From contig NZ_LT732540.1 in NCBI RefSeq assembly GCF_900155635.1, positions 375,930-439,549 of the forward strand: a DNA stretch of 63,620 bases. The letters are read 5' to 3'. Below the pieces are notes generated by a model. That model had not been told where the DNA came from. It did no database searches and saw nothing but the letters and a program-made list of their open reading frames with translations. The DNA is from Olsenella urininfantis. Lineage in GTDB: Bacteria > Actinomycetota > Coriobacteriia > Coriobacteriales > Atopobiaceae. Shown piece after piece: positions 6,615 to 63,620 of the stretch; the stretch's first letter is position 1, and every line of letters starts with the position of its first letter. Both the position numbers and the translations under genes were made by a program.

Positions 6615-6696
6615 GCGCTATACCGTAGCCTAGTCCCACTTTTTCGGCGAAATCACCCAGAAAGTGGGACAAGAGCTACGGTATGGCGCCTTTTTG
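6615..6696 (+). terminator. Long two-part hairpin terminator after htrA
   Basis: The outer arms at 6615-6629 and 6675-6689 (GCGCTATACCGTAGC with one mismatch) enclose perfect inner arms GTCCCACTTT (6633-6642) and AAAGTGGGAC (6661-6670). The structure ends in a T5 run. It spans about 80 bases, much longer than the other terminators here, so it may be a small repeat element or structured RNA that also terminates transcription. Confidence 0.7.
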
Positions 6697-24749: not shown

Positions 24750-24911
24750 GGTGGGCAGACATGCACCTTTTCGGCCGGTAAGGGCCTTCGAGCGCGCATT
24801 GACCAACCCTGGGAGGGCGAAACGGTGGGCGAACGCGCAGCTCTCGACCTGTGACCAGCAGAAGATGCGCATTGACCCACCCACAGCGGCCCCAGCGGTG
24901 GGTGAGCGCCC
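24750..24911. repeat. Palindrome array 1 (73-bp period) after rnhA
   Basis: There are two full interrupted palindromes. Unit A has arms 24794-24808 and 24824-24838; unit B has arms 24867-24881 and 24897-24911. Their centres are exactly 73 bp apart. The left arm is GCGCATTGACCCACC (one change in A) and the right arm is close to its complement. A lone right arm, GGTGGGCAGACATGC (24750-24764), sits where a third unit would fall if its left half were cut off by the rnhA end. Spacers are 28-29 bp. Nothing else is seen in the 265-base gap 24731-24995. Confidence 0.8.
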
Positions 24912-24995
24912 GAACCCGAGGCTCCAGCCACCAAAAGGGTATAGTTAGCCATGGGTAAAATGCCCATTACGTTGATGCCGACGGAAGGCCACGAG

Positions 24996-39063: not shown

Positions 39064-39256
39064 GCATTCTCGCTTCGGTGAGGTTCCTTCCCCGAGGTGG
39101 GCAGATACGGCCCTCTCGCTAGAAAACATCGTTCTTTTGCGCGTTGACCCATCAAAACAGGCATTTTTGGTGGGTCAACGCGCTGTTTTCTCTCCTGCAG
39201 AAGCGCAACCCGCGCATTGACCCACCCGCCTGGGTCTCCTTGGCGGGCATCCGCCC
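39064..39256. repeat. Palindrome array 2 (73-bp period) between oppF and the nuclease-like gene
   Basis: Unit b has arms 39139-39153 and 39169-39183; its 13-bp core GCGCGTTGACCCA pairs perfectly with its partner. Unit c has left arm GCGCATTGACCCACC (39212-39226) and a degenerate right arm (39242-39256). A right arm GGTGGGCAGATACGG (39096-39110) plus a weak left arm (about 39064-39078) marks a third, decayed unit. Centres fall at about 39088, 39161 and 39234, that is 73 bp apart. The first unit lies next to the oppF stop, as in array 1 beside rnhA. The 208-base gap holds nothing else. Confidence 0.8.
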
Positions 39257-39267
39257 ATCTTGGCTTG

Positions 39268-40233
39268 CTACACACTAAACGGGTTGGTGCCAAAGAGCAT
39301 CGTCCTGAGCTCTCTTCGTGGGAGAAGCGCCTCCTCTTCCTGTGCGCAGTCCACCTCCTTCCCTAGGATCTCTCGAATCTGTGACACGAGTACCGCGCAC
39401 TCGTCCGCCTTGCTGAGGTCGCTGTATTCGCAGACGAGCACTTTGTGCCCCAGCGTCTTGAGCGCGTTCAGTCGCAGCTGGTCCTTGCGCGCCTGCCGCC
39501 CTTCGCCATGCCAGCGCCCGTAGTACTCAAGCCCCAGCATGCGCTGGCTCCAATAGAAGTCGACCGAGAAGAAGCTCCTGTCTGGTCTGTCCAGAAGAAG
39601 CTGATCGATGCCGTTAGTCGGTATGCGATGGTTGACGGAGAAGGGACCCAGGTCGTAGCCTCCATAGCGCTGGGGGAGGGCAAAGAGGACAGCTCCGTCT
39701 TCCTCGATCGGTGACGCCGCGTTCTCGCTCATCCAGCGCAGGGCCTTCTGCAGCTTCCTACAGCCGTACGAGCTTCCCACCTCATCGAGGACGCGCCGCA
39801 GGGAGCTGCGGCTGCAGAGCGGAGCCCTCCTCTCGAGCGTTGGACCCTCCATGCGAAAGCAGCTCATGAGACGAGTTCCCGCGATGACCAGCTCGAGGAC
39901 GCTGAGCTTCCCAGCGAGCTGAAGCAGGCAGAACTCTGGGGTGCTCACGTATACCTCGGGAGAGACCCTCACAAAGGCCCTGCTGGGAATGGTGCCGCGC
40001 CAGGCATGGCGAAAGACGCCACCAACCTCCTTGCTCCTCTCTCCCGAGCTCAGAAGGTGAATCGGGCCGTCGGGTTGGTCTGTCGCGTGCATTCCCGCGC
40101 TGACGACCGCGCGCTTCGTGTGCTCCGCATCCGAAAGCGTGTGGTGCAGCGCGTGGTGCAGCATGGACACCTTCCTCTCGTTCGCAGAGAGCCAGAAGTG
40201 GTACGCGCTGTTGTGACTCAGATAGATCGCCAT
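39268..40233 (-). CDS. PD-(D/E)XK nuclease-fold protein (DUF559-like)
   Basis: The 321-residue protein has an N-terminal half of unknown fold (about 1-150) and a C-terminal half that looks like the Vsr/DUF559 branch of the PD-(D/E)XK superfamily: D225 (SVDFYW), E236-Y-Y-G239, then RLNALKTLGHKVLVCEYSDL, matching the basic helix and final strand of that fold. Related actinobacterial proteins are sometimes named AbiEi-like antitoxin or endonuclease-domain proteins, usually without tested function. A strong AAGGAGGAG site precedes the ATG at 40233. It stands alone, flanked on both sides by the 73-bp palindrome arrays, and has no partner methylase or toxin gene beside it. Confidence 0.6.
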   Translation of the reverse strand: MAIYLSHNSAYHFWLSANERKVSMLHHALHHTLSDAEHTKRAVVSAGMHATDQPDGPIHLLSSGERSKEVGGVFRHAWRGTIPSRAFVRVSPEVYVSTPEFCLLQLAGKLSVLELVIAGTRLMSCFRMEGPTLERRAPLCSRSSLRRVLDEVGSSYGCRKLQKALRWMSENAASPIEEDGAVLFALPQRYGGYDLGPFSVNHRIPTNGIDQLLLDRPDRSFFSVDFYWSQRMLGLEYYGRWHGEGRQARKDQLRLNALKTLGHKVLVCEYSDLSKADECAVLVSQIREILGKEVDCAQEEEALLPRRELRTMLFGTNPFSV

Positions 40234-40467: not shown

Positions 40468-40877
40468 GAGTCGATTGTTGGGACTGCCATGTTGGGGGGT
40501 GAGCAAATGTGCGCCCGGTGTGCCGCAGATTCCTCGGGTGTCGTGTTCACCCACCCGAGTGGCTTTCTGGGATGGGCGGACGCGCAGCTTGACGCCGCGT
40601 GAAGCCCCAAAGCCCGCATTCGCCCACCCGGAGGGGCGACTTGGGTGGGTAAAAACGCCAGCTTGCGTCCACAATCGCCCAAAATAGCGTGTTGACCCAC
40701 CGTCGCCACGGCCAGCGGTGGGCCAACACGCAGGGTGGTGTCGTGGAGAGGTGCAAGGGTCGCATCGACCCACCCGCAGGGCGGCCTGGGGTGTGTCGAT
40801 GTGCGGAAATCTGCTCTCCGCGAGGAGAAGGCACGAATCCGCCCACCTTGCCAGGTGCGGCGAGGTGGGCGGACGAG
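40468..40877. repeat. Palindrome array 3: five or six units, 72-74-bp period
   Basis: Five interrupted palindromes follow each other, with arms at 40542-40556/40569-40584, 40616-40629/40643-40658, 40687-40701/40717-40731, 40761-40775/40788-40804 and 40834-40848/40863-40876. Centres are about 40563, 40637, 40709, 40783 and 40855. The third is best: GCGTGTTGACCCACC pairs with 14 of 15 bases. A sixth, decayed unit fits at 40468-40512 (right arm GGTGAGCAAATGTGC). Arms drift but change together (for example CGCATCGACC with GTCGATGTGCG), which suggests a selected structure. The stretch 40234-40467 shows nothing I recognise. The array ends 42 bases before the 3' end of the peptide-binding gene on the minus strand. 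Confidence 0.82.
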
Positions 40878-40918
40878 AGCGAACGGCGGATGGTGGCGGC
40901 CCCGCGGACCCCCGACGG

Positions 40919-63488: not shown

Positions 63489-63497
63489 CTTCTCTCG

Positions 63498-63548
63498 GAC
63501 CGACTGACCGCCACCAAGTGGCGGTCAGTCGGTCTTCTTTTCTTTTTG
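63498..63548 (+). terminator. Intrinsic terminator after uvrA
   Basis: A perfect 17-bp stem (63498-63514 with 63518-63534), a CAA loop and a T-rich tail (TTCTTTTCTTTTTG) form a textbook terminator 9 bases after the stop. Confidence 0.93.
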
Positions 63549-63563
63549 ATAGGCTATATTGGC

Positions 63564-63596
63564 CCGCATGCCCGCCACTTGGTGGCGGGCATGCGG
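63564..63596. repeat. Second perfect hairpin beyond uvrA
   Basis: A perfect 15-bp stem (63564-63578 with 63582-63596) with a TTG loop lies 16 bases after the uvrA terminator. Its 17-base core is the exact reverse complement of the core of the first hairpin, so the two look like inverted copies. It may be the terminator of a convergent gene outside the window, though its minus-strand side lacks a T-run. Confidence 0.65.
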
Positions 63597-63620
63597 AAGG
63601 CCCGTCTCTTTTACACATCT

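Follow-up and report, generated by a model that had tools for sequence, protein, structure and literature searches.

The 63,620-nucleotide stretch of the Olsenella urininfantis genome analysed here (contig NZ_LT732540.1, positions 375,930 to 439,549; hereafter the window) raises the question of why intergenic DNA should carry regular arrays of interrupted palindromes, and to which gene they belong. Two of the three arrays in the window enclose a gene for a 321-residue Vsr/DUF559-like (EDxHD-type) nuclease, and comparison with relatives indicates that nuclease and palindromes very probably form one unit. With less confidence, we favor as the probable overall account that the palindromes are DNA dyads targeted by a selfish nuclease cognate to them and that they were spread by cut-and-copy. 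The support lies in sequence comparison: linkage of palindromes to one gene family, related copies on both sides of the gene, arms specific to each genome, dispersal, presence or absence at one chromosomal site, one exchange, and covariation of a DNA type.

Array C consists of five full interrupted palindromes (40541-40878, plus strand) with a period of 73 bp. Each unit is 45 bp, with 15-bp arms near GCGCATTGACCCACC around a centre of 15-16 bp, and spacers are 28-29 bp. The units lie at 40541-40585, 40614-40658, 40687-40731, 40760-40804 and 40833-40878, the last with arms that have changed jointly to TCCGCCCACC / GGTGGGCGGA; the matches to a covariance model (R1) lie at 40540-40588, 40613-40661, 40686-40734, 40759-40807 and 40832-40881. 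The arms, period and polarity of C recur in two further arrays, A (24750-24911) and B (39096-39256). Array A holds units at 24794-24838 and, 73 bp further on, 24867-24911 (model matches 24793-24841 and 24866-24914), and array B holds units at 39139-39183 and 39212-39256, both matched by the model, the second ending 11 bp beyond the stop codon of the nuclease gene. These nine units both trained the model and were rescored by it, and all nine scored higher on the plus than on the minus strand, giving the three arrays one polarity. Each array opens with a lone right arm, in register and one period ahead of the first full unit: the half units GGTGGGCAGACATGC (24750-24764) in A and GGTGGGCAGATACGG (39096-39110) in B, and GGTGAGCAAATGTGC (40498-40512) in C, all on the plus strand, with scores reached by 0.00013, 0.0003 and 0.0005 of window positions, the last becoming 0.0025 when five positions are allowed for. 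A preliminary description of the region had placed five clear units where we find them, with the same regular geometry, and a likely sixth near 40490. This sixth unit is not borne out: it folds no better than shuffled sequence (z +0.2), has no model match at E ≤ 10, and consists of the right arm GGTGAGCAAATGTGC only.

The nuclease gene (39268-40233, minus strand) is the single member of its family in the window and lies between arrays B and C; its start codon is inferred, and the open frame extends to 40425. The protein alone gave no Pfam match at E ≤ 0.1 and no NCBIfam match above the cut-off. Its closest solved structure is the homing endonuclease I-Bth0305I, which came second (E 9.7e-3, probability 1.00) to a mitochondrial ribosome protein (E 9.1e-3) in a Foldseek search that returned no match at E ≤ 0.001. 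By fold and profile the enzyme is one of the Vsr-like/EDxHD nucleases. All 83 homologs compared have E177 and D225, and at least 90% of them keep E236, H242 and D251; in an alignment of 25 sequences E177, D225 and E236 are invariant, with H242 and D251 below 90%. The N-terminal 170 residues have an AbiEi-like fold, which is a resemblance only. Of the 140 genomes searched in one family, 130 have homologs, with up to 16 matches each. Searches of viral contigs and phages found no relative, and a plasmid record from Collinsella aerofaciens holds one distant relative (24% identity over 58% of the query).

Palindromes accompany this gene family well beyond the window. Among 39 loci, comprising the best 40 matches to the window protein minus one exact duplicate (L060), an inverted repeat (span ≤ 260 bp, BLAST E ≤ 1e-3) lies within 500 bp of the nuclease gene in 28, against 5 of 50 control open reading frames (ORFs) from the same loci (P 1.7e-9), and a repeat common to both sides of the gene is found in 19 of the 39 against 2 of the 50 (P 1.2e-6). 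Both P values overstate independence because the loci were picked by similarity and some are close kin (L056 and L059 are 88% identical). A first survey of hairpin density had counted 42 hairpins in the 31.4 kb within 400 bp of a family gene, with mostly 0.1-0.6 per kb, and up to 0.86 in single bins, farther away. Two loci, L067 and L074, carry longer inverted copies of about 130-180 bp on either side of the gene, with dyads spanning 130-166 bp, and palindrome length seems to be a trait of the clade.

A close view of the association comes from one chromosomal site in a genus of 31 genomes, for which the genes flanking the cassette of genome G315 returned 30 loci (the remaining genome, G319, had no match). 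Fifteen loci hold a palindrome-nuclease-palindrome cassette, nine are near-empty with 7-84 bp between the same two genes, and six were left unscored, two with a family gene in a truncated locus (L169, L189) and four with other arrangements and no family gene (L174, L187, L188, L190). In the occupied loci the downstream palindrome beats all of its 10 shuffles in 15 of 15 and the upstream palindrome all of its 6 in 13 of 15; by eye, the two exceptions (L162, L178) have a centre or mismatches outside the limits of the scan. The best hairpins of near-empty sites score 12.5-29.5, which are raw values with no shuffle comparison. The two palindromes of one locus resemble each other far more (32.4) than those of different loci do (11.3 +/- 5.8; reached in 0 of 20,000 permutations), and in 11 of the 15 loci a palindrome's own partner ranks first. 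Arm similarity also rises with protein identity (Spearman r 0.30; 30 of 5,000 permutations). Sister genomes G315 and G298 have flanking genes that are 93.6% and 97.9% identical around nucleases that are 59.5% identical, and their left flanks agree as far as the outer CGACCATAC, with two differences over the final ~130 bases, and diverge beyond it. Read from sequence, the two genomes have undergone an exchange of cassettes in which one border coincides with a palindrome. Losses also appear to occur, since the near-empty locus L177 retains what looks by eye like half a palindrome.

Arms that differ between genomes, yet agree on either side of a given gene, turn up again at unlinked sites in each of the five genomes in which they were looked for. 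Genome G389 has ten perfect palindromes over seven contigs and eight other genomes have none; in its four complete arrays, one of which adjoins a family gene, arm starts are spaced 39-32-39-54-39-32-39 bp. Genome G367 has 46 arm sites (at most two mismatches), where the reversed pattern gives 2; these sites flank the family gene left and right in locus L097 and occur in other places, and the same pattern gives 0-10 sites against 0-7 reversed in eight other genomes. Among 17 stretches around the G389 and G367 arrays, a family gene lies beside or between arrays in two (L097, L111). The genus of 31 genomes contains 19 CGACCATAC...GTATGGTCG palindromes, all of 64 or 65 bp, in six genomes, and none of the reversed pattern; of the 17 looked at, five flank family genes in three genomes and 12 have no such gene within 1.5 kb. 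Their inner arms vary between species, and their centres are unconserved. G315, the genome with the matching nuclease, has five copies of the AACACCC version; G298, where the nuclease at the shared site carries other arms, has one. As an observation apart, the 54-bp link between half elements in the G389 arrays (L105-L111) retains, by eye, a stretch resembling GGCATAAATA, which could be a promoter or belong to the element itself.

The palindrome sequence of the window itself hardly travels. The preliminary description had envisaged many array matches in Coriobacteriia; a covariance model of the nine units, run with Infernal's stricter filters over the 140 genomes, instead matched two genomes at E ≤ 0.001, each with a single palindrome and not an array, and the window pattern has no match in the 31 genomes of the one genus. 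An exact pattern of one arm plus GGNGGG matched nine stretches of a species collection, once each, in bacteria unrelated by title, which we put down to chance. Because searches outside the window gave almost nothing, the sequence is, as far as these comparisons go, lineage-specific, and it is the architecture that recurs with other arm sequences, tied to the nuclease gene.

If selection maintains the two arms of a unit, it could do so through a folded RNA or through the DNA dyad, as the preliminary description had noted in suggesting that arms of a unit change together. Dyad symmetry is kept in the window. Across its nine units the fraction of cells that pair is 78.5%, where shuffles give 73.8 +/- 1.6% (reached by 2 of 500), and the covariation score is 0.201 against 0.135 +/- 0.020 (1 of 500), but pairs changed on both sides are no more than ordinarily frequent (6, with 4.4 in shuffles; 87 of 500). 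The mismatches between arms carry no strand bias (13 A-C against 9 G-T), and the ratio of two-sided to one-sided changed cells, 10 to 6, favours neither reading. Relatives give a clearer answer. In 8 and 9 aligned palindromes (from 9 and 10 found in one genus), two-sided outnumber one-sided changed cells by 24 to 2 and 32 to 2, with covariation above all 500 shuffles in both sets, although orthology between L119 and L122 means that the counts include some shared history. RNA pairing under selection typically evolves by way of G-U pairs. Since covariation in the relatives occurs almost without G-U intermediates, their arms are better read as DNA dyads than as RNA, which is consistent with a site of symmetric DNA or with one arm having been copied onto the other.

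This bears directly on the possibility that the palindromes are RNA-level elements, hairpins that end transcripts or shield mRNA ends, which we regard as very improbable. The arrays do come after gene ends, four of the five array C units fold better as RNA than dinucleotide shuffles (z -2.5, -3.8, -3.1 and -5.3), and unit 1 of array B is followed on the plus strand by a terminator-like T-rich tail. Against these points stand the arm changes in relatives, a sequence that is genome-specific and bound to one gene family, and the scarcity of T tracts, the scan finding only the one behind array B unit 1 where 1.7 are expected in shuffles; the remaining array C stretch, 40603-40668, which covers the unit at 40614-40658, folds no better than shuffles (z -0.6). 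The strongest rival, because the N-terminal part of the nuclease is AbiEi-like, is that the palindromes are operator sites, bound by an AbiEi-like regulator at its own gene and across a regulon. We nevertheless consider it unlikely, given the matching palindrome a few bases past the stop codon, the invariance of the nuclease residues E177 and D225, the turnover of arms between sister species, and arrays of up to five units that, with the site-wide loss of palindromes together with the gene, do not resemble a regulon.

Dispersal could also be the work of another enzyme. The palindromes might be repetitive extragenic palindromic (REP) sequences or bacterial interspersed mosaic elements (BIMEs), mobilised by a Y1 (HUH) enzyme of the REP-associated tyrosine transposase (RAYT) type, with the nuclease gene only incidentally present at a hot spot. 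Alternating arms, regular spacing, intergenic location and many copies are BIME-like, and Y1_Tnp (PF01797) is present in 8 of 10 genomes tested, some of its frames being 250-330 residues, the typical length of a RAYT. The two other genomes, G301 and G310, carry 65-bp palindromes with no Y1_Tnp match; the sole match in G367 lies in a 174-residue frame ~84 kb from the nearest arm site; the three in G389 are all on contigs that have no perfect palindrome; and no GTAG-type tag is seen by eye at the arm feet in the window or in one genus. Because it also leaves the two-sided repeat match around one gene family unexplained, we judge this explanation improbable. The 73-bp period and unique spacers are, finally, reminiscent of a degenerate array of clustered regularly interspaced short palindromic repeats (CRISPR), and palindromes might arise by chance in GC-rich DNA. 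Such an origin is scarcely credible here. The repeats are not identical (mean column identity 64% in array C and 67% across the nine units), a finder of near-identical copies detected no direct-repeat family and one palindrome only over array C, nine scanned neighbours of the arrays contain no CRISPR-associated domain, and three arrays share one register plan. The preliminary description was right to set aside both a CRISPR array and a simple tandem repeat. It knew of no named element with this geometry, and Rfam scans gave no match at gathering score (two matches, at E 0.92 and 0.98, fall far below it).

We therefore return to the palindromes as target sites of the nuclease encoded between arrays B and C, to which gene they would belong. 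We propose that the arms are its binding sites, one nuclease subunit to each arm, and that a cut or nick falls in the palindrome centre between them. Repair from another copy would then spread and homogenise the arms within a genome and leave the centres free to vary. Gene-less arrays such as array A may be non-autonomous copies, the palindrome-nuclease-palindrome cassette would come, go or be swapped as a whole, and nuclease and arms would change specificity together. Binding of the arms, cutting, and spread driven by cutting are activities that we infer for the protein from sequence. A target of nearly 60 bp, on which I-Bth0305I dimerises according to a review (PMC3943268), fits the 64-65-bp dyad by analogy. 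The spread of palindromes by cut-and-copy is an idea on which we stand close to evenly divided, with a slight lean toward doubt. More tentative again is the broader proposal of a bacterial selfish repeat of a new class, in which a Vsr/EDxHD nuclease would generate and maintain within the host genome a population of the palindromes that it targets, with sister species swapping cassettes at fixed hot spots.

Several observations weigh against this account. Intact target sites flanking an endonuclease gene would invite self-cutting. No inverted repeat was detected in 11 of the 39 family loci and no two-sided repeat in 20, and the Collinsella aerofaciens family member lacks a palindrome pair. A stricter short-loop test gave a weaker contrast (18 of 40 family loci against 11 of 78 controls, P 5e-4), because palindrome centres reach 60-150 bp in many clades. 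The window nuclease gene itself has the inverted repeat and lacks the two-sided repeat by BLAST, its arms being too short and diverged for that test, and among 34 control ORFs of the window eight lie near an inverted repeat, none near a two-sided one, and nine are positive in the short-loop test. The occupied sites of the one genus are orthologous and not independent events. By eye, 16 flanks show no target-site duplication, and we found no clean empty-site junction, orthologous intergenic DNA being too diverged for exact junctions. In the attempt on a solo palindrome of G301 (at 128180), the palindrome is absent by eye from 18 alignable loci of the 30 returned, 11 of the 30 having no usable flanks on the searched strand. 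Two of the 18 (L136 and L145, in G317 and G303) contain a longer insert whose repeated arms resemble CGCTTACGAAA, by eye a different family of palindromes at that gene end.

That many related bacteria carry a relative of the gene beside palindromes of different sequence suggests a selfish pairing of nuclease and repeat of a kind not yet described. Among known systems the nearest counterpart is the REP/RAYT system (REPtron), described (PMC8266576) as intergenic dispersed palindromes with one cognate nuclease-type gene per family, flanking repeats and genome-specific sequence. The likeness extends to dispersed intergenic regular arrays, a cognate nuclease-type gene flanked by repeats, and genome-specific sequence. 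Here, in contrast, the gene has a Vsr/DUF559-like hydrolytic nuclease fold and not that of a Y1 HUH transesterase, the units measure 45-65 bp or more around a centre that varies, and copy numbers (window, G389, G367) reach tens at most, where REPs usually run to hundreds. The system works like a REPtron but fails both defining features tested, the GTAG tag and a cognate Y1 gene, two palindrome genomes having no Y1_Tnp. With EDxHD homing endonucleases such as I-Bth0305I the protein shares a Vsr-like domain with conserved acidic and histidine residues; it differs in that no intron or intein location was found, dyad repeats flank the gene, gene-less copies exist, and the N-terminal 170 residues are AbiEi-like rather than a known homing-endonuclease DNA-binding arm. 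Inverted ends, one gene between them and short gene-less copies recall an insertion sequence with its miniature inverted-repeat transposable elements, but each end here is a full palindrome and not half of an inverted pair, and neither a known transposase domain nor, in the 16 flanks, a target-site duplication was found. Unlike an AbiEi type IV antitoxin, the protein has a C-terminal nuclease domain with conserved acidic residues and is accompanied by dispersed sites, and unlike an AbiE toxin-antitoxin pair, it has no AbiEii gene among the nine scanned neighbours. In the open-licence literature we found no paper that pairs DUF559, Vsr-like or EDxHD genes with dispersed palindromes. If cut-and-copy spread holds, the system would be a kind of its own; otherwise it would resemble known pairs of a nuclease with dispersed palindromes.

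Were the account correct, a large and mostly unnamed nuclease family, present in nearly all genomes searched, would gain a concrete job, with a candidate target beside each gene. Targets that differ between close relatives would form a natural series on how such enzymes choose DNA, and could be a source of new long-site nucleases. There would be a second route, besides RAYT transposases, to populations of dispersed palindromes: a system parallel to RAYT/REP and independent of it, based on a hydrolytic nuclease and widespread in a Coriobacteriia family. The old question of why bacteria keep extragenic palindromes would gain a testable lineage, in which two palindrome genomes have no Y1 match.

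The nine scanned neighbours of the arrays are transport genes, two with sub-domain-level AAA_21 matches that reflect ABC-ATPase overlap. Elsewhere in the window, a separate palindrome at 6630-6673, CTAGTCCCACTTTTTCGGCG...CACCCAGAAAGTGGGACAAG, has a T-rich tail and is unlike those of arrays A-C. At 63600-63620 the sequence GTCTCTTTTACACATCT resembles the end of a sequencing adapter, in which the contig may terminate. Just before it, past a uvrA-like gene, two perfect short-loop palindromes at 63497-63596 (GGACCGACTGACCGCCAC-CAA-... and CCGCATGCCCGCCAC-TTG-...) share GCCAC/GTGGC ends and differ from arrays A-C.
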